Source of the DNA: Halobellus limi
GTDB taxonomy: Archaea > Halobacteriota > Halobacteria > Halobacteriales > Haloferacaceae
Length of the DNA: 64,000 bases
Assembly (NCBI RefSeq): GCF_004799685.1
Contig: NZ_CP031312.1
Location: forward strand, 124,001-188,000
Reading direction: 5' to 3'
Each line of letters starts with the position of its first letter. The stretch's first letter is position 1. Both the position numbers and the translations under genes were made by a program. Positions 49,059-61,521 of the stretch are shown here, one piece after another. The notes beneath the pieces were generated by a model, which ran no database searches, was not told the DNA's origin, and saw nothing but the letters and a program-made list of their open reading frames with translations.

Positions 49059-51533
49059 TCAGGAGTCGGGATCGAGGCGGCCGTCGACAGCGCGGATGGC
49101 CGCGGCGTTCTCTCGGACGTCGTGGACGCGGACCACGTCCGCGCCGCGGTCCGCGGCGAGCGCGGTTCCGGCGACCGTGGGCGTGAGTCGACCGTCGTCA
49201 GCGTAGTCGATCGCCTCGTACATCGACTTCCGGGAGTGGCCGATGAGCACGGGACAGCCGAGCGCGCTGAACTCCGCGGCGCGGTCGACGAGCGCGTACG
49301 ACTCGGTTGGCGATTTGCCGAACCCACAGCCCGGGTCGATGACGATCCGGTCGCGGTCGATCCCCGCCCGCTGGGCCCGGAGGAGTTGCTCTCCGAGTTC
49401 GTCGATGACGTCCTCGACGACGTCGTCGTAGATGGGCGAACTGTCCGGATCGACCGGGATCGAGAGGCTGTGCATCAGGACGAGCGCGGCGTCGTGATCG
49501 GCGACGACGAACGGCATCTCGGGGTCGGCGAGCCCGGAGACATCGTTGACGATGTCCGCGCCCGCGTCAAGCGCGGCGTCGGCGACCGACGCCTTCCACG
49601 TGTCGACGGAGACCGGGACGTCGAGTTCGGAGAGGGCCTCGATCACCGGGACGACGCGATCGATCTCCTCCTCGGCAGGCACCGGATCCGCACCGGGGCG
49701 GGTGCTCTCTCCGCCGACGTCGACGATGTCTGCGCCGGCTTCCACCATCGCCTCGGCGCGCTCGACGGCCGCTTCGAGCGCCTCGTACTCGCCGCCGTCG
49801 TGGAAGCTGTCCGGAGTCACGTTGAGGATGCCCATCACGGCCGTTTCCTCGCCGGCGAGCGGTCCGAGCCCGGACTCGCGAGAGGGCTCGATCGGCCCCA
49901 GCTGCTCGTCGAGTTGTGTCGCGACGCGCCTGAGTCCGAGGCCCTCGTTCGAGAGCGCCGTCACGAGCGTTCGCAACTGATCGGACGTCCCCGCGATCAC
50001 CGTGGCGACCAGTTTCTCCGGGCTCCCCGCCGTCGATCGACGGCAGCCGCCGCCGACGTCGGAGACGAGTTCGGCGACTCGCTCGGCCTGCGCTTTCCGG
50101 AGGTACGTTCTGAACACCCGGCGATCCATTTCGCCGACCGGCGCGTTCCCGCCGGCGGCGGTCCCGGTCGCCGCCGCGTCGGCGGCGCGGTCGAAGGACG
50201 CGCCCACGAACGACGACGCGACGTGTGATCCGCGCGTGCGCGCGGTCGGGACGAGTCGGCGGGTCCACCGGTCTCGGGCCTCCGCGACGGTGTACAGCGA
50301 TCCCGACACCAGAACGAAGTCGTCGGGGTCGGCCGCCTCGATGGCCCGCTCGGTCGCTTCCGGGACGGACGCGACCGTCTCGACCGATCCGGCGTGCGCC
50401 GAGAGCGTCTCCGCGAGCGCGCCCGGGTGCTCGGCGCGGTCGAGGTCGGGACGCGTCGCGTACGCCGTCTCGACCTCGGGCAGAGAGTCCACCATCTCCC
50501 CGTAGGCCTTGTCGGCCATCGCGCCGAACACCAGGTGGAGGTCGTCGTAGTCGTAGCGGCCGAGCAGGTCCGCGAGCGTCGCCGCCGCCCCCGGGTTGTG
50601 CGAACCGTCGAGGACGACCATCGGTTCGGTCGACATGATCTCGAACCGGCCGGGCCAGACCACCGACCGGAGCCCGTCGGCGATCGCGTCGGTGTCCACG
50701 TCGGCGATCTGACGCGCCAGCGTCGCGGCCACGCCCGCGTTGCAGGCCTGATGCGAGCCGAGGAGCGGCAGGTTCGTCTCGAGCGACCAGTCGGGGCCCG
50801 CGATCGACACCACGCTCTCGACCGCCGAACGCATCCCGGACTCGACGGCGACGACGTCGGGCGCGTCCGCTCCGTCGCCGCGTTCGGGACCCACGGAGAC
50901 GACGTCGGTCACCTCCCGGATGGCTTCGAGCGCCGACCCGTCCGCGCCGGTCACGAGCGGACCGGTCTTCGGCGCGACCTGGGCTTTGTCGCGAGCGATC
51001 TCCTCGACGGTCTCGCCCAGGAGTTCGGTGTGTTCGAGGCTGACGCTGGTGACGGCGCTGGCGACCGGGTCGACGGCGCTCGTCGCGTCGTACCGGCCGC
51101 CGATGCCCACCTCCAGGATCGCCACGTCGACGTCCATCTCGCTGAAGTGCCGGAGCGCGACGGCCGTGAGGACCTCGAAGTGGGTCGGTTCGTCGTCGTC
51201 CGCTCGAAGGCGGTCAATGCAGGGCGTGAGTTCCTCGGCGTACGTCGAGATCAGCGACTTCGGGACCTTGCGTCCGTCGACGCGTACCTGTTCGCGGAAG
51301 TCGTTCAGCCCGGGCGACGTGAAGAGCCCGACGTTCAGGCCCGCGCGACGGAGCACGCTCTCGAGCATCCGCGCCGTGCTCCCCTTCCCGTTCGATCCGG
51401 CGATCTGGACGCAATCGACGTCGTCCTGCGGATCGCCGAAGTGCGAGAGCATCCTGGCGGTCGTCTCGATGCCGAGTTTCGGCCGGCGCCGCTGAAACGA
51501 GGTGAGGTAGTCCGCCGCCTCGTGGTATTTCAT
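49059..51533 (-). CDS. folCP: Fused folylpolyglutamate synthase-dihydropteroate synthase
   Basis: 824 residues. The N-terminal about 420 residues are FolC-like, with the ATP loop GSNGKGST (46-53). A linker of about 130 residues follows. The C-terminal about 270 residues are dihydropteroate synthase, with MGILNVTPDSFHDGG, DIVDVGGESTRPGA and PGCGFGKSPTESYALV. Such FolC-FolP fusions are known in haloarchaea and supply folate cofactors. Its place among THF-using genes is notable. Promoter: a TATA-like element on the minus strand at 51560-51569. Confidence 0.95.
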   Translation of the reverse strand: MKYHEAADYLTSFQRRRPKLGIETTARMLSHFGDPQDDVDCVQIAGSNGKGSTARMLESVLRRAGLNVGLFTSPGLNDFREQVRVDGRKVPKSLISTYAEELTPCIDRLRADDDEPTHFEVLTAVALRHFSEMDVDVAILEVGIGGRYDATSAVDPVASAVTSVSLEHTELLGETVEEIARDKAQVAPKTGPLVTGADGSALEAIREVTDVVSVGPERGDGADAPDVVAVESGMRSAVESVVSIAGPDWSLETNLPLLGSHQACNAGVAATLARQIADVDTDAIADGLRSVVWPGRFEIMSTEPMVVLDGSHNPGAAATLADLLGRYDYDDLHLVFGAMADKAYGEMVDSLPEVETAYATRPDLDRAEHPGALAETLSAHAGSVETVASVPEATERAIEAADPDDFVLVSGSLYTVAEARDRWTRRLVPTARTRGSHVASSFVGASFDRAADAAATGTAAGGNAPVGEMDRRVFRTYLRKAQAERVAELVSDVGGGCRRSTAGSPEKLVATVIAGTSDQLRTLVTALSNEGLGLRRVATQLDEQLGPIEPSRESGLGPLAGEETAVMGILNVTPDSFHDGGEYEALEAAVERAEAMVEAGADIVDVGGESTRPGADPVPAEEEIDRVVPVIEALSELDVPVSVDTWKASVADAALDAGADIVNDVSGLADPEMPFVVADHDAALVLMHSLSIPVDPDSSPIYDDVVEDVIDELGEQLLRAQRAGIDRDRIVIDPGCGFGKSPTESYALVDRAAEFSALGCPVLIGHSRKSMYEAIDYADDGRLTPTVAGTALAADRGADVVRVHDVRENAAAIRAVDGRLDPDS

Positions 51534-51897: not shown

Positions 51898-53619
51898 ATG
51901 ACGTCCGAAGACGACGGCGGTTTCCCCACAGATTACGAGATCGCAAAGGACGCGGAGAAAGAACCGATCAAAGACGTTCTCGAGCCGTGGGGCATCGACA
52001 ACGACGACATCGAACTGTACGGCGACTACAAGGCGAAACTGTCCCACGAGGGCGTCGACCGCCTCCGCGACAACGCCGAGAACAAGGAGGGCAACCTCGT
52101 ACTCGTGACGGGGATGACGCCGACGCCGATGGGCGAGGGCAAGACGGTCACGACCGTCGGCCTCGGCCAGACGCTCAACCACGTCGGCGAGGACGCGATG
52201 ATCGCGATCCGCGAGCCGTCGCTCGGGCCGGTCTTCGGCGTCAAGGGCGGCGCGGCCGGCGGCGGCTACTCGCAGGTGCTCCCGATGGAGGACATCAACC
52301 TCCACTTCACCGGTGACCTCCACGCGCTCACCTCCGCGCACAACCTCATCGCGGCGATGCTCGACGCGAAGATCTCCCAGGACGACGAGTTCGACGTCGA
52401 CATCAACGACGTCGCGTGGCCGCGCGCGATGGACATGAACGAGCGGGCGCTCCGCGACATCGTCGTCGGTCTCGGCGGCAAGTCCGGCGGGACGCCGCGG
52501 GAGAGCCGGTTCCTCCTGACGGCGGCCTCCGAACTGATGGCCGTCCTCTGTCTCGCCGAGGACCTCGCGGACCTCAAAGAGCGCATCGCGCGCATCATCG
52601 TCGCCTACGACACGGACGGCGAGCCGATCACCGTCGACGACGTCGACGCCACCGGCCCGGCCGCGATGCTCCTGAAGGACGCGATCAAGCCGAACCTCGT
52701 CCAGACCATCGAGGGCACGCCCGCGTTCGTCCACGGCGGCCCCTTCGCGAACATCGCTCACGGCACCAACTCCCTGATCGCCGACAAGACGGCGTTCGGG
52801 ATGGGCGATTACCTCGTCACCGAGGCCGGCTTCGGCTCGGACCTCGGCGCCGAGAAGTTCATGAACATCGTCTGCCGTCTCGGCGACATGACGCCGAACG
52901 CGGTCGTGCTCGTCTCGACCGTGCGCGCGCTGAAGTACCACGGGATGGGGATGTGGCCCGCCGACCTCGAAGAGGTCAAAGAGGCCGGCGTCGACGAACT
53001 CGAAGCCGGCTTCGCGAACCTCGACAAGCACGTCCGCAACCTCCAGAAGTTCGGCGTCCCGGTCGTCGTCGCGCTCAACCGCTTCCCCGACGACACCGAC
53101 GAGGAGGTCCAGGCCGTCCTCGATCACTGTCGCGAGGACCTCGGCGTCCGCATCGCCGAGTCGAACGTCTTCGCCGAGGGCAGCGAGGGCGGCGTCGACC
53201 TCGCCGAGAACGTCGTCGAGGCCGTCGACGAGGGCGATGAGGACGAGTTCGACCACCTCTACCCCGACGACGCGCCGATCAAAGAGAAGATCGAGACCGT
53301 CGCGACCGAGGTCTACGGCGCAGACGGCGTCAACTTCACCGGCGGCGCCGAGGACGACATCGAACGGCTGAACGACCTCGGCTTCGACGACGCGCCGGTC
53401 TGCCTCTCGAAGACGTTCCACTCGCTCAGCGACGACCCCTCGAAGAAGGGCGCGCCCGAGGGCTGGGAACTCGAAGTCCGCGAGCTGTACCCCTCCGCGG
53501 GCGCGGGCTTCATCGTCGCGCTGACGGGCGACGTGCTCGACATGCCGGGCCTGCCGGCGACCCCCGCCGCGGCCGGAATGGACATCGACGAGGACGGCAA
53601 CATCAGCGGCCTGTTCTAG
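51898..53619 (+). CDS. fhs: Formate-tetrahydrofolate ligase
   Basis: 573 residues. Catalyses formate + THF + ATP to 10-formyl-THF, or the reverse to make ATP. The ATP loop TPMGEGKT is at residues 76-83; REPSLGPVFGVKGGAAGGGY and DINLHFTGD segments follow, and LMAVLCLAEDLADLKERI and GFGSDLGAEKFMNI are typical. Bacterial enzymes are about 555-560 residues. In the proposed pathway it would link the formyl-THF pool to free formate. Divergent from folCP. Confidence 0.97.
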   Translation: MTSEDDGGFPTDYEIAKDAEKEPIKDVLEPWGIDNDDIELYGDYKAKLSHEGVDRLRDNAENKEGNLVLVTGMTPTPMGEGKTVTTVGLGQTLNHVGEDAMIAIREPSLGPVFGVKGGAAGGGYSQVLPMEDINLHFTGDLHALTSAHNLIAAMLDAKISQDDEFDVDINDVAWPRAMDMNERALRDIVVGLGGKSGGTPRESRFLLTAASELMAVLCLAEDLADLKERIARIIVAYDTDGEPITVDDVDATGPAAMLLKDAIKPNLVQTIEGTPAFVHGGPFANIAHGTNSLIADKTAFGMGDYLVTEAGFGSDLGAEKFMNIVCRLGDMTPNAVVLVSTVRALKYHGMGMWPADLEEVKEAGVDELEAGFANLDKHVRNLQKFGVPVVVALNRFPDDTDEEVQAVLDHCREDLGVRIAESNVFAEGSEGGVDLAENVVEAVDEGDEDEFDHLYPDDAPIKEKIETVATEVYGADGVNFTGGAEDDIERLNDLGFDDAPVCLSKTFHSLSDDPSKKGAPEGWELEVRELYPSAGAGFIVALTGDVLDMPGLPATPAAAGMDIDEDGNISGLF

Positions 53620-55850: not shown

Positions 55851-55861
55851 ATGTCGAGTGA
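55823..55861 (+). other. Short upstream ORF overlapping the formate dehydrogenase start
   Basis: A 12-codon frame (ATG 55823, TGA 55859-55861) overlaps the dehydrogenase ATG at 55851 in another frame and contains its GGAGGG site. It would be leaderless from the TATA at 55789-55797. The arrangement mirrors that of the BCCT gene. Confidence 0.4.
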
Positions 55862-57965
55862 CGAACAAGACCCCGTGAAGACGATCTGTCCGTACTGCGG
55901 CGTCGGCTGCGGGATCCAGGTACAGCCCGGAGAGGACCCCGGCGATATGCGGTTTATGCCGTGGGGCGACGCGCCGGTGAACGACGGGCGCGTCTGCATC
56001 AAGGGCGGCGCGGCGACGCAGGTCGTCGACCACGAGGACCGGCTCACCGACCCGCTGATCAAGGAGGACGGCGAGTTCCGCGAGGCCTCCTGGGAGGAGG
56101 CCTACGAGCGGATCGTCTCCGAGATGGAGGAGATCCGCGAGGAGTTCGGCCCCGACGCGATGGGCTTCTTCGGCTCCTCGAAGACGATGAACGAGGAGAA
56201 CTACCTCCTCCAGAAGCTCGCGCGCCGCTACGGCACGAACAACGTCGACAACTGCACGCGGATGTGCCACGCCTCGACGGTGTACGCGCTGCGGACGAGC
56301 CTCGGCGCGGGCGCGATGACCAACAGCATGGAGGACCTGATGAACGAGGCCGACGTGCTGTGGATCCAGGGCGCGAACCCCGCCGAGCAGCACCCCATCG
56401 CCAACAGCAACTACTTCCGACAGGCCGTCCTCGACGGCGCGACGGTCATCCAGGTCGACCCCCACGCCAACAAGACGACGACCTCCTTCGACATCGAGGA
56501 GACCGAACGTCACCAGCACCTCCAGCTGGAGCCGGGCACGGACATCCCGCTTCTCAACATCGTCCTGAAGACGGTGCTGGAGAACGACTGGGTCGACGAG
56601 GAGTTCGTCGAAGAGCGCACCGAGGGCATCGAGGACCTCCGCGAGACGCTGGAGGACTTCGACAAGGAGGCCGCCGCCGAGGAGTGCGGCGTCCCGCTCG
56701 AGGACATCGAACTCGCCGCCGAGAAGTACGCGACGGCCGACAACGCCGCCATCTTCACCGGGATGGGGATGAGCCAGCACACCTGCGGCGTCGACAACGT
56801 CCAGAACGAGATCAACCTCGCGCTGGCCACCGGTAACCTCGGTCGCCCCGGCACGGGCGTCAACCCGCTCCGCGGACAGAACAACGTCCAGGGGACCTCC
56901 GACGTCGGCGCGATGCCGAACGTCCTGCCCGGCTACCAGCTCGTCGACGACGACGAGGCTCGCGAGAGCGTCGAGGACGTCTGGGGGTTCGAGATCCCCG
57001 ACGAGCCCGGCCTGACGAACGTCGAGATCACCCAGAGCATCGGCGAGCAGATCCAGGGGATGTACGTGATGGGCGAGAACCCCGTCATGTCCGAACCCAA
57101 CGCCAACCACGTCTCCGACCTCCTCGACGAGCTCGGCTTCCTGGTGGTCCAGGACATCTTCATGACCGAGACCGCCGAGTACGCCGACGTCGTGCTGCCG
57201 GCGACGACGTGGGCCGAGCGCGGCGGCACCGTCACCAACACCGACCGCCGCGTCCAGCGGATGCGCGGCGTCCAGAAGGTCCACGAGAACACCAAGCACG
57301 ACCTCGACATCCTGTGTGAGGTCGGAACGCGACTGTTCGGCGAGGGCTTCGACTTCGACACGCCCGAGGAAGTGTTCGAGGAGCTCCGCCAGGTCTGCCC
57401 GAGCTACCACGGGATGACCTACGACGCGCTCGGCGAGGAGGGCATCCACTGGCCCTGCTACGAACCGGGCGACGAGGGCGATCAGTACCTCTATGAGGAC
57501 GGCTTCGACACCGAGAGCGGCCTCGGGCAGATCGAGGGCGTCACCCACCAGCCGCCGAAGGAGGTGCCCGACGAGGAGTACCCGCTCATCCTCACGACCG
57601 CGCGGCTCGAAGAGCACTACAACACCGGGACGATGAGCCGACGCTCGCCGCGGCTCAACAAGCAGTACCCCGAGAACTTCGTCGACGTCCACCCGAACGA
57701 CGCCGAGCGCTACGGCATCGAGGACGGCGAGAAGATCACGCTGAAGTCCCGCCGCGGCGAGATCGAGGTCGAAGCGCACGTCACCGAGGACATCAAGGAG
57801 GGCGTCGTCTGGACGACGCCGCACTTCGCTGCGGCCTCGGCGAACCGGCTGACGAACGACGTCCTCGACGAGCGAGCGAACATCCCCGAGTACAAGGCCG
57901 CCGCCGCGGAGATCGAAGTCGGCGTCGAGCCCTCGGAGACGAGCGACGCGCCGGCCGACGACTGA
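55851..57965 (+). CDS. fdhF: Formate dehydrogenase catalytic (alpha) subunit
   Basis: 704 residues of the molybdopterin oxidoreductase family. N-terminal 4Fe-4S ligands Cys13, Cys16, Cys20 and Cys49 (PYCGVGC ... GRVCIKGG); catalytic site NCTRMCHAS with Cys139-His140, where selenocysteine stands in E. coli FdhF. Later: WIQGANPAEQHPI, GMGMSQHTCG, RPGTGVNPLRGQNNVQG and a C-terminal pterin-binding barrel. Oxidises formate to CO2. No adjacent beta or gamma subunit is visible, so the electron acceptor (ferredoxin or another partner) is unknown. The start is set by GGAGGG nine bases upstream. Confidence 0.94.
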   Translation: MSSDEQDPVKTICPYCGVGCGIQVQPGEDPGDMRFMPWGDAPVNDGRVCIKGGAATQVVDHEDRLTDPLIKEDGEFREASWEEAYERIVSEMEEIREEFGPDAMGFFGSSKTMNEENYLLQKLARRYGTNNVDNCTRMCHASTVYALRTSLGAGAMTNSMEDLMNEADVLWIQGANPAEQHPIANSNYFRQAVLDGATVIQVDPHANKTTTSFDIEETERHQHLQLEPGTDIPLLNIVLKTVLENDWVDEEFVEERTEGIEDLRETLEDFDKEAAAEECGVPLEDIELAAEKYATADNAAIFTGMGMSQHTCGVDNVQNEINLALATGNLGRPGTGVNPLRGQNNVQGTSDVGAMPNVLPGYQLVDDDEARESVEDVWGFEIPDEPGLTNVEITQSIGEQIQGMYVMGENPVMSEPNANHVSDLLDELGFLVVQDIFMTETAEYADVVLPATTWAERGGTVTNTDRRVQRMRGVQKVHENTKHDLDILCEVGTRLFGEGFDFDTPEEVFEELRQVCPSYHGMTYDALGEEGIHWPCYEPGDEGDQYLYEDGFDTESGLGQIEGVTHQPPKEVPDEEYPLILTTARLEEHYNTGTMSRRSPRLNKQYPENFVDVHPNDAERYGIEDGEKITLKSRRGEIEVEAHVTEDIKEGVVWTTPHFAAASANRLTNDVLDERANIPEYKAAAAEIEVGVEPSETSDAPADD

Positions 57966-58035: not shown

Positions 58036-58215
58036 GTGAGAATCGAGACCGCGGTCGACGTCGACGTCGCAATCGACGTCCACGCGAACTGCATAGTCGC
58101 CGACGCCTACAGCGTGGACGTCCACCCCCACAGCGAGGTCGTCGATGCCTACAGCGGGTCGGTATCGCCGTTCGCTTTTCGCACACGAGGAGAGACAGAT
58201 GCCACCACAGCGTGA
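58036..58215 (+). other. Short repeat-containing ORF between fdhF and CBS gene
   Basis: A 59-codon frame from GTG 58036 to TGA 58213-58215 overlaps the start of the next gene by 17 bases. It is rich in Val-Asp (GTCGAC steps) and holds two copies of a GTCG-CGA-GCCTACAGCG-like segment (about 58093-58109 and 58139-58155). Because GTCGAC is palindromic, the minus strand also reads as Val/Asp-rich. It may be a small gene or simply low-complexity spacer DNA. Confidence 0.3.
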
Positions 58216-59038
58216 TTCGGATCCCGATGGATCGCTTTTGGAGTTCGACGAGGTCACCGTCGAGGAGTACATGACGACGGACGTCGACACCGTCGCGCCC
58301 GACGCCTGGGTGACCGACGTGGTCGACCGCCTGAAGGAGGGATCGCAGTACAGCGGCTTCCCGGTCGTCGACGACGACCGGACCCTGCTCGGGTACGTCG
58401 GTGCGATCGACCTCCTGGAGCGGCCCGGCGACGAGTCGGTGGCGACCGTGATGAGCCGCGACCCGGTCGTGGTGAGACCCGAGATGACGGTGAAGAACGC
58501 GGCGCGCGTGATCCTCCGGACCGGCCATCAGTTCCTCCCGGTCGTCGACGGCGAGCGGACACTGCTCGGGACGTTCTCGAACGGGGACGCGGTCAGAAGC
58601 GGGATCGAGCGGACGACGCCGACGAAGGTCCAGAGCACCAGAGAGATGCTCGAACGGAGCCACGACGCCACCGTCGACGTGTCCGAGCGCGGGGTGTCGG
58701 TCGACGCGCTCGTCCCGACTCAGCGGGAGGTGTACGCCGACGAACTCGAGGGGCGGAAGTACGAACTCCAGCACGAACTCGCGGAGCCGTTGATCGTCGT
58801 CTCCTCCGGGTCCGAACGGTTCCTCGTCGACGGCCACCACCGCGCGATGGCCGCCCGGCAGCTGGGCATCGAACGAACGCTCGCGTACGTCCTCACGGTT
58901 CCGGAGGGCGACGTCGGCGAACTCGGATTCCGGAAGGTGGCGCGAGTGGCGGGCCTGGAGTCGCTGGCCGACATCGACGTCAACGACTACCTCCAGCACC
59001 CGCTCATCGAGAAGACCGATCCGACCCAGGAGGGTTGA
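58199..59038 (+). CDS. CBS-domain pair with ParB-like domain
   Basis: 279 residues. Two CBS domains (about 17-75 and 80-140; VEEYMTTDVDTVAPDA, then VATVMSRDPVVVRPEM) form a Bateman module that binds adenylates such as AMP or ATP. The C-terminal part (about 155-255) is ParB/sulfiredoxin-like, with a VDGHHRAMAARQLG motif. A CBS-ParB combination occurs in archaea, function unclear. The ATG at 58199 is chosen over an upstream frame lacking conservation signals. It follows fdhF by 233 bases and could be an energy-sensing regulator. Confidence 0.85.
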   Translation: MPPQRDSDPDGSLLEFDEVTVEEYMTTDVDTVAPDAWVTDVVDRLKEGSQYSGFPVVDDDRTLLGYVGAIDLLERPGDESVATVMSRDPVVVRPEMTVKNAARVILRTGHQFLPVVDGERTLLGTFSNGDAVRSGIERTTPTKVQSTREMLERSHDATVDVSERGVSVDALVPTQREVYADELEGRKYELQHELAEPLIVVSSGSERFLVDGHHRAMAARQLGIERTLAYVLTVPEGDVGELGFRKVARVAGLESLADIDVNDYLQHPLIEKTDPTQEG

Positions 59039-59122: not shown

Positions 59123-60958
59123 TCAGTCGCTACGGCGCGCGATCGAGTCGCGCCCGGCGACCGGGGTGTCGTCGTCGACGACGTCGAGGAGGTCCAATCG
59201 GTCGAGGAGGTCGCGGGTCGGAATCCCCTCCTCGTTCCACCCGCGGGCCGCGTAGTAGCGGCGGCGAAGGCCGTCGAACCAGTCGGTGTCGATGGCGTCG
59301 CCGGAGGCGGGGCCGCCCGCGAGCGGTCGCTCGAACACAGAGGGGAGCGTCTCGTCGGACGCGTCGAAGCCCTCGCGGACGTTGAACAGTCGGGTCAGCG
59401 TCCAGGTGCGTTCGCCGACGCGGAGCAGCTCGGCCGGGTCCGTCGGTGCGGTGGCGTCGACCGTCGACAGCCACTCGGCCCCGAGGTCGTCCTCCAGCAC
59501 CGCGCCCGCGAAGTCGTCGGCGATCAGGCTCCAGAGGACGGAGGTGATCGTCTGCTCGCGGATCACGAGGCGGACGCGGTCGGTGTCGTCCCAGGAGTCG
59601 CCCTCGAACACCTCCGTCTCTGCCGGGAGCGAACGCCGGTGACACGCCCCGCGGTCGCTCGTCGCGTACGCCAGCGCCATCGTCGGCGACCCCCGCGGGT
59701 CGTAGGCCGGGAGTTCCATCGACTTGATCGTCGGCACGAGGTCGGCCCCGCCGAGTCGCTCGGCGGCGGCCTCGACCCCGTCTGCGAGGGCGTCCGGGAC
59801 GCCGTCCTCCCGGTGGGCGATCGCGTCGATGAGCCCCCGTGCGGCCTCCTCGTCGCCGAAGTCGGGGGTCGACCCGAGTGCGTCGGGGGCGTCGGGGACG
59901 TCGACGATGCCGGCCTCGACGGCGCGGACGGTCCAGGCGACGGCGTTACCGGCGCTGATGACGTCGATCCCGAGCCGGTCGCAGTCCTGACCGAGGGCGG
60001 CGACCGCGTCGAAGTCGTCGATGCCGAGGCCCGCGCCGAGCGACATCGGCGTTGCCCCGCGCGGCACCGACTCGCCGGCCTCGGTTTCGACGCGGAACCC
60101 GCCGGGAATCTCGGAGTCGCCGTCGGCCTCCCGCGCGACTGCCGCCTCTCGAACCGCGTCGATACCGATGTCCGCCGCGCCGTCGAAGGAGCCCTCCTGC
60201 CAGCCGCGGGTCGAGAGGACGCCCACCTCGTCGGCGAAGTCGACGGTCTCGAGCGTCGCGCTCGCGGCGTGCCAGCGGCCGACGTCGTGTTCGCGGTACC
60301 GGCGCTCGTACTCGTCGCGGAGCGCCGCGACCTCCCGGGACGGTTCGGGTTGCGATCCGCGGGCGACGACCGCCTTCAGCCGTTTCGCCCCCATCACCGC
60401 GCCCGCACCGCCGCGGCCGGCGTGGTGGTCGCCGCCGTCGGACGCGATGGTCGCATAACGCACCCGGTTCTCGCCCGCGGGACCGGCACACGCGACGGCG
60501 CCCTCGAAGGCGTCACACGTCTCGACGACGTCCCGACCCCAGAGGTCGTCCGCGGGAGAGAGCGTCGCTGTCCCGTCGGCGATTTCGAGGACGGTGGGTT
60601 CGTCGGCCTGGCCCGTGATCGCCACGCCGAGCGCGCCGCCGAGCGCGCCGACGAGGGAGGAGGCGAACTCGCCGCCGCTGTAGGAGTCGAGGAACGTGCC
60701 CGTCAGCGGCGAGCGGGTGATCGCCGCGAACTGGGGTTCACCCGGGAGCAGGCCGCTGAGCGGGCCCAACGTGAACAGGAGGTAGTTGGCCGGACCGAGC
60801 GGATCCGTCCCCGGTTCGAGGCGGTCGTACAGGTACCGTGCCCCGAGTCCTTTGCCCCCGACGTACTCGGCGAGCCACCGGTCGGGAAGCCGCTCGCGTT
60901 CGACGGAGCCGGCGCTCAGATCGACGTGAAGCAGGTCCGTGGGGGCCCCGTCGGTCAT
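59123..60958 (-). CDS. Aldehyde:ferredoxin oxidoreductase-family protein lacking cluster cysteines
   Basis: 611 residues. The N-terminal AOR domain has LPDRWLAEYVGGKGLGARYL and ITRSPLTGTFLDSYSGGEF, and the pterin-contact segments GPAGENRVRYA and GRGGAGAVMGAKRLKA are conserved. AORs use a tungsten bis-pterin and bind a 4Fe-4S cluster through a CxxC-x3-C motif plus a distant Cys. Here the corresponding stretch (AVAREADGDSEIPGGFRVE) has no cysteine, and the usual C-terminal DSxxxCxF site reads VLWSLIADDFAG. The protein may bind tungstopterin without the cluster or have lost activity. Confidence 0.88.
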   Translation of the reverse strand: MTDGAPTDLLHVDLSAGSVERERLPDRWLAEYVGGKGLGARYLYDRLEPGTDPLGPANYLLFTLGPLSGLLPGEPQFAAITRSPLTGTFLDSYSGGEFASSLVGALGGALGVAITGQADEPTVLEIADGTATLSPADDLWGRDVVETCDAFEGAVACAGPAGENRVRYATIASDGGDHHAGRGGAGAVMGAKRLKAVVARGSQPEPSREVAALRDEYERRYREHDVGRWHAASATLETVDFADEVGVLSTRGWQEGSFDGAADIGIDAVREAAVAREADGDSEIPGGFRVETEAGESVPRGATPMSLGAGLGIDDFDAVAALGQDCDRLGIDVISAGNAVAWTVRAVEAGIVDVPDAPDALGSTPDFGDEEAARGLIDAIAHREDGVPDALADGVEAAAERLGGADLVPTIKSMELPAYDPRGSPTMALAYATSDRGACHRRSLPAETEVFEGDSWDDTDRVRLVIREQTITSVLWSLIADDFAGAVLEDDLGAEWLSTVDATAPTDPAELLRVGERTWTLTRLFNVREGFDASDETLPSVFERPLAGGPASGDAIDTDWFDGLRRRYYAARGWNEEGIPTRDLLDRLDLLDVVDDDTPVAGRDSIARRSD

Positions 60959-61140: not shown

Positions 61141-61521
61141 CTACTCGGTCGTCGCGATGGCTTCGATCTCGACGGCGGCGCCCTTCGGGACAGCTCCGGC
61201 CCCGACGGCGCTCCGGGCGGGCGGTTCCTCCTCGAAGAACTCGCTGTAGGCCTCGTTGAACTCGTCGAAGTCGTCGATGTCGTCGAGGAAGACCGTCGTC
61301 TTCAGGACGTCAGACAGCGAGAGGCCCTCGGATTCGAGGATCGCCTCGACGTTCCGGAGACACTGTCGCGTCTGATCGGCGACGGACTCGTCGTCGAGGA
61401 GTTCGCCGTCGGTCGTCAGCGGGAGCTGGCCCGCCGTGATCAGGAGGCTGCCGTTCGTCGTCGCCTGGCTGTACGCGCCGACCGCCGCGGGTGCGTCGTC
61501 GGTGCTGATGGTTCGCTTCAT
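61141..61521 (-). CDS. RidA-family reactive-intermediate deaminase
   Basis: 126 residues, standard RidA/YjgF size. Starts RTISTDDAPAAVGAYSQA; includes LITAGQLPL, DVLKTTVFLDDIDDF and the catalytic arginine in ARSAVGAGAVPKGAAVEIE. RidA enzymes hydrolyse enamine/imine intermediates such as 2-aminoacrylate formed by PLP dehydratases. A threonine/serine dehydratase is in the same window. Small cytoplasmic trimer in other organisms. Confidence 0.94.
   Translation of the reverse strand: MKRTISTDDAPAAVGAYSQATTNGSLLITAGQLPLTTDGELLDDESVADQTRQCLRNVEAILESEGLSLSDVLKTTVFLDDIDDFDEFNEAYSEFFEEEPPARSAVGAGAVPKGAAVEIEAIATTE

Follow-up and report, generated by a model that had tools for sequence, protein, structure and literature searches.

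The window analysed here is a 64,000-nucleotide stretch of the Halobellus limi contig NZ_CP031312.1 (positions 124,001 to 188,000). It encodes on its reverse strand a 611-aa protein of the aldehyde ferredoxin oxidoreductase (AOR) family without the ligands of the iron-sulfur cluster (59123–60958), referred to below as the cluster-free AOR. The gene begins with ATG, a TTG 9 bases upstream being a possible alternative start, and has no internal stop. Its product matches the Pfam domains AFOR_N (5e-62, 209.6 bits) and AFOR_C (7e-87, 292.4 bits), both above cut-off, which together span the protein from end to end; among Pfam domains only AFOR was found, and the FdhD domain PF02634 was not. Homologues with 79–91% identity are present in other Halobellus genomes, and the closest solved structures are AOR-family enzymes with about 30% identity. 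Convergent with this gene lies that of a soluble formate dehydrogenase (FDH) alpha subunit, FdhA (55851–57965, forward strand, 704 aa), which reaches 746.9 bits against TIGR01591 (cut-off 666) and retains the cluster motif CPYCGVGC and the catalytic Cys-His (CTRMCH). A C1 gene, formate–tetrahydrofolate ligase (Fhs; 51898–53619, forward strand; PF01268, 9e-249), also lies nearby. FdhA and Fhs are the partners within reach of the cluster-free AOR in the window; YqeC is encoded in the same genome, not among the window neighbours. Beside Fhs, a reverse-strand gene (49059–51533) encodes a protein with Mur-ligase-like and pterin-binding (dihydropteroate-synthase-like) domains and forms part of a folate/C1 gene group. 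The CBS-domain protein between FdhA and the cluster-free AOR (58145–59038, forward strand) probably stands outside the system, because in Halobellus rarus (L006) the two flanking genes are separated by just 109 bases. A RidA-family deaminase (61141–61521, reverse strand) is encoded 182 bases upstream of the cluster-free AOR on the same strand and adjoins it in six Halobellus-type loci only. RidA, EamA, the CBS protein and a potassium channel were rejected as partners, since they neighbour the cluster-free AOR only in Halobellus-type loci. The genome further contains three cluster-bearing AOR-family genes (L001, L003, and L004) and one fragment (L005, G000:C3:42331-42750), a 161-aa ORF that matches the C-terminal part of AFOR_C only and is probably an AOR paralogue in decay.

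Residues were compared in an alignment of 51 members of the cluster-free clade, 15 canonical AORs and 5 sister proteins, numbered according to Pyrococcus furiosus AOR, whose cluster ligands C288, C291, C295, and C494 all align on cysteine. The 51 clade members inspected have no cysteine at any of these four positions, and all four cysteines are present in the 15 other AORs and the five sister proteins of the same alignment. In the protein of the window the corresponding positions are G280, a gap, G286 and D481. The former cluster region (60053–60148, reverse strand, codons 271–302) lacks, according to the alignment, both CxxCxxxC and Glu311-Tyr312-Glu313, and the sequence WSLIADDF (59510–59533, reverse strand, codons 476–483) stands where ordinary AORs have their second pterin motif, DxxGLC, and the fourth cluster cysteine (C494 replaced by D481). 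A search for displaced ligands in all common cysteine columns of the 51 clade members recovered none: cysteines shared by at least half of the clade occur only at C157, C326, and C439, columns that are distant from the cluster site and often hold cysteine in ordinary AORs as well. A preliminary description of this DNA, which had reported the absence of the four cluster cysteines and the scatter of the remaining ones over unrelated positions, was accurate on both points, and the ligands at shifted positions that it had named as a possible refutation did not turn up, there being no clade-wide cysteine near the cluster site.

The losses extend beyond the cluster. In all 51 clade members Glu311 is replaced by Arg, Tyr312 by Gly, and Glu313 by Ala, Gly, or Ser; C494 is likewise changed in all of them, and Asp489 is replaced by Trp across the clade. 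These glutamates and the tyrosine have been assigned as acid residues in aldehyde oxidation, with Glu313 as the proposed proton acceptor, in an account that also describes the roles of Tyr427, His448, and the main-chain Mg ligands at 93 and 183 (PMC12096430). Retained are Thr243 (50/51) and, without exception, Tyr427, His448, Asp343, and the AGRGG loop. The preliminary statement that the pterin-binding motifs are kept therefore applies to the first motif (DRLGID, residues 338–343) and the AGRGG..AVMG loop and fails for the second (DxxGLC, residues 489–494), which has become WSL(I/V)xD. Arg182-Ala183, which lies at the Mg/phosphate end of the pterin-binding site, is replaced by His-His in the window protein (60422–60427, reverse strand, codons 178–179), and Arg76 is Gln in the Halobellus proteins. 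Of 86 columns conserved to at least 90% in 12 canonical AORs and the 5 sisters (with three divergent canonical sequences set aside), 66 are retained in the clade; the 20 changed columns include all cluster ligands and residues 311–313. As described in PMC13328260, WORs carry the cluster and show, over 92 clades, very little variation in these active-site residues and the cluster site. The open-licence PMC literature yielded no account of an AOR without the cluster, and other literature may hold one. One member of the clade, L096 (G009:C1:1890249-1892159), has the former cluster loop extended by a long acidic insertion, which splits its match in two, and the same split is seen in other genomes of that genus.

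According to an AlphaFold2 model (pLDDT 88.5, pTM 0.92), computed from an alignment of 45 of the 51 clade sequences after exclusion of six with over-long starts or inserts, the cluster-free AOR is predicted with high confidence to adopt the full-length AOR fold, in line with the structure prediction that the preliminary description had proposed as a check. The model superimposes on P. furiosus AOR (1aor) with Z 46.1 and TM 0.90, and on the set of 9mqx, 1aor, 1b25, and 9g7j with Z 45–46, TM of about 0.90, rmsd 2.1–2.2 and 29–32% identity. With these enzymes it shares the whole fold, T243, Y427, H448, the first pterin motif and the AGRGG loop; unlike them, it has neither the [4Fe-4S] ligands nor Glu311/Tyr312/Glu313 nor the second DxxGLC, and it is linked to FDH and cofactor genes. 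Family members from the same type of organism are Haloferax volcanii WOR83 (PDB 9q1t) and the canonical haloarchaeal AORs L001, L003, and L004, the last three of which keep the cluster cysteines. In a tree of 53 rows, which contained 33 of the 51 clade rows, the cluster-free proteins form a single clade (support 100/100), to which the cysteine-bearing L081–L084 and then L085 are nearest. These rare sister proteins, from four haloarchaeal genomes and one outside the class, share 39–42% identity with the cluster-free AOR, have the same His-His at positions 182–183 in four of five cases and Tyr at 93 in all; unlike it, they keep the four cysteines and Glu311-Tyr312-Glu313. The simplest history is a single loss of the cluster on the stem of the clade. 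Pairwise comparison of five Halobellus genes gives dN/dS values of 0.13–0.18, and the gene is under purifying selection. That the protein is cluster-free is supported by this selection, the AOR-fold model and the loss seen in every one of the 51 orthologues compared with P. furiosus AOR, which is the conservation among haloarchaeal homologues that the preliminary description had asked about.

The window protein matched 230 of 391 genomes of the haloarchaeal class at E 1e-60. Of these, 217 were counted as carriers, 7 were unclear, and 6 contained other AORs; carrier status follows the tblastn E-value, and the carriers include 12 genomes whose match is split or partial. Across 294 genomes of the phylum, the matches listed from outside the haloarchaeal class had at most 41% identity. 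Co-occurrence was scored in 384 of the 391 genomes (217 carriers and 167 non-carriers, the 7 of unclear status being omitted) as raw counts that ignore kinship among genomes, as do the Fisher p-values calculated from them, on which no weight is placed. An orthologue of the soluble FdhA is present in 143/217 carriers and 26/167 non-carriers. Many of the loci have a second FDH type nearby, an exported protein of 1000–1160 aa with a twin-arginine-like start, whose nearest solved structure is 9vap, an FDH alpha subunit (E 2.6e-221), and which falls below the TIGR01591 cut-off. It was detected in 46 of the 74 carriers without soluble FdhA orthologue vs. none of 80 non-carriers, the latter search having spanned 80 of 142 intended genomes with the query and threshold that were positive in the 46 carriers. 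Either FDH type, soluble or exported, occurs in 189/217 carriers. At the thresholds used 28 carriers have neither, 25 of them with a weaker FDH-like match and 3 with none, so that 214/217 carriers have an FDH if weaker FDH-like matches are included. Conversely, the 26 non-carriers with an FdhA orthologue, 25 of which encode YqeC, indicate that the cluster-free AOR is dispensable for some haloarchaeal FDHs; it may serve a subset of them, notably the exported type.

The gene neighbourhoods of 51 loci, mostly one per genus, were inspected with flanks of at most 8 kb (less for the window slice and some other loci). The neighbours include an FDH alpha subunit (26/51), YqeC scoring above its NCBIfam cut-off (19/51), an FlpD/ferredoxin-domain (Fer4) polyferredoxin (15/51), a MobA-like nucleotidyltransferase (14/51), DUF7124 (13/51), a TorD/NarJ-like chaperone (11/51), a formaldehyde-dehydrogenase-like ADH (9/51), Fhs (5/51), and an FDH-beta-like ferredoxin (5/51). 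The MobA-like protein is named by similarity only, as it remains below the cut-off (105.8 vs. 151.85). In all 13 loci that contain it (L041, L042, L048, L050, L053, L056, L058–L060, L070, L071, L073, and L099) the DUF7124 gene (PF23439) follows the cluster-free AOR directly downstream on the same strand, and in 12 of them it overlaps the end of that gene, by 1–8 bases in 11; DUF7124 is thus likely a co-translated partner. The remaining partners vary in order and strand from genus to genus, as expected if the neighbourhood reflects a functional tie rather than mere inheritance.

The most constant companion of the cluster-free AOR is YqeC (TIGR03172), which was found in 216/217 carriers vs. 55/167 non-carriers; the sole carrier without it is a genome of 85% completeness. 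YqeC is also present alongside 168 of the 170 orthologues of the soluble FDH. In the 12 carriers with a listed YqeC position, 7 of 12 cluster-free AOR loci lie within 10 kb of YqeC, whereas none of the 28 canonical AORs in the same genomes does. A role as accessory protein to selenium-dependent molybdenum hydroxylases has been proposed for YqeC (PMC2276186), and deletion of yqeC in C. difficile is reported to cause no clear phenotype (PMC11448449). SelD was absent above cut-off from 23 of 25 carriers tested, and each of the other two has an additional YqeC beside SelD, so the copy linked to the cluster-free AOR mostly occurs without SelD. A selenium link via YqeC was rejected, as no more than 3 of 61 genomes, two of them carriers, had SelD above cut-off. 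Haloarchaeal YqeC is accordingly found in two settings (G016:C5:384406, G053:C2:251440, and G185:C10), adjacent to SelD or independent of SelD together with FDH and the cluster-free AOR, and its use as a selenium marker would mislead in these organisms. The idea that the cluster-free AOR merely marks genomes with molybdoenzymes was likewise rejected: PF00384 enzymes are encoded in 10 of 18 genomes that have neither YqeC nor the cluster-free AOR; in genomes with YqeC only they are present in 18 of 18.

In bacteria, FdhD sulfurates the FDH cofactor and delivers it to the enzyme (PMC13197769, PMC10609526). A search of 61 haloarchaeal genomes at E 1e-10 gave no FdhD, and at E 1 none of 28 had a match above cut-off, while 8 control genomes were positive above cut-off. 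According to a 2023 review, halobacteria often possess FDH genes without fdhD, and which proteins substitute for it was posed there as a question (PMC10609526). The formate-dependent growth documented for Halodesulfurarchaeum, a haloarchaeon with FDHs (PMC5437934), implies that haloarchaeal FDHs are matured somehow.

Two readings had been offered for the cluster-free AOR at the outset, a cluster-free tungsto-enzyme and a non-redox cofactor-binding protein. The second fits better because Glu313, Glu311, and Tyr312 were lost along with the cluster, with cofactor binding itself putative. We therefore lean, at just under an even chance, toward an accessory protein that assists maturation of the FDH cofactor, performs no redox chemistry and probably binds a bis-pterin. 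Several features suggest this redox-silent role: residues on the pterin side are retained, the electron path has disappeared together with the catalytic acids, and the gene keeps company with those for YqeC, MobA-like and TorD-like proteins. This branch of the tungsten aldehyde oxidoreductase fold would have ceased to be an oxidoreductase and would still bind W/Mo-bis-pterin, or pterins alone. The protein might hold the pterin cofactor without redox chemistry, as an intermediate for steps carried out by YqeC and the MobA-like protein, before the FDH alpha subunit receives the cofactor; possible partners in this process are the TorD-like protein and, in loci that have it, DUF7124 with its translational coupling to the cluster-free AOR. 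Cluster-free AOR and YqeC would then jointly take the place of FdhD, with a guanylylation scaffold, sulfuration and hand-over as candidate steps. A more specific proposal is no better than possible: a single recruitment of the tungsten-AOR fold in haloarchaea would have produced a redox-silent carrier of bis-pterin, which replaces FdhD together with YqeC in loading the Mo/W cofactor of FDH. The likeness to FdhD would lie in the proposed job of an FDH-dedicated cofactor accessory, as the two belong to unrelated families. YqeC tracks soluble FDH more completely than the cluster-free AOR does and is thus at least an equal candidate for the core FdhD replacement. AOR enzymes contain bis-MPT without a nucleotide and FDH contains bis-MGD; a hand-over from one to the other would therefore need an extra step. 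Pterin binding may also be weak or gone, given the loss of the second pterin motif and the Gln at position 76 in Halobellus. This motif loss, the bis-MPT/bis-MGD mismatch, the 26 FdhA-containing genomes without the cluster-free AOR, the 28 carriers with neither FDH type and the unproven function of YqeC all count against a role in FDH maturation.

The retention of T243, Y427, and H448 in the active site would also be compatible with a cluster-free W/Mo enzyme that performs a formate or formaldehyde reaction of its own and passes electrons directly to a partner such as FDH, the FlpD/ferredoxin-domain protein or the DUF7124 protein. The formaldehyde-dehydrogenase-like ADH, Fhs and the FlpD/Fer4 polyferredoxin at some of the 51 loci would suit such a reaction. 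We regard it as unlikely, however, because the proposed proton acceptor Glu313 (PMC12096430) is gone in the whole clade, no electron-transfer gene constantly adjoins the cluster-free AOR, and WORs are described as cluster-carrying (PMC13328260). Doubtful, too, is a pterin-free protein that reuses the AOR scaffold as a structural or regulatory FDH partner or as a folding chaperone. The combined loss of the second pterin motif, E311/Y312/E313 and the cluster would be in keeping with it, as would the FDH linkage, but the AGRGG loop, D343, Y427, and H448 are invariant in 51/51 sequences and the 66 retained columns out of 86 are more than a mere scaffold should require. Tungsten enzymes without net redox chemistry have a precedent in acetylene hydratase, and a lost electron path with a partly retained active site could point to a hydratase or hydroxyl transferase type of enzyme whose pathway shares the FDH locus by chance. 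Acetylene hydratase retains its cluster, however, and across genomes the tie is to FDH and YqeC, not to a gene of any metabolic pathway, which makes this option very improbable. Finally, an artefact can be dismissed, since the sequencing or frameshift error considered in the preliminary description, like a pseudogene or a misalignment, finds no support in an intact full-length ORF whose AFOR_N and AFOR_C domains are complete and cover the whole protein, so that nothing is missing by frameshift, in the low dN/dS, in the same losses in 51 orthologues or in the confident AOR-fold model.

If the preferred reading of a non-redox accessory protein for FDH is correct, the cluster-free AOR would be, as far as the literature covered goes, the first member of the AOR family that works without an iron-sulfur cluster and the first that is an accessory factor rather than an enzyme. 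Over half of the sampled haloarchaeal genomes (217/391) would then contain a gene for which the annotation "aldehyde ferredoxin oxidoreductase" is misleading. The link to the cluster-free AOR would provide YqeC with a selenium-independent setting for functional testing. Moreover, the cluster-free AOR and YqeC, together with DUF7124, would be named candidates for the FdhD-less maturation of FDH in halobacteria, the question raised in PMC10609526.
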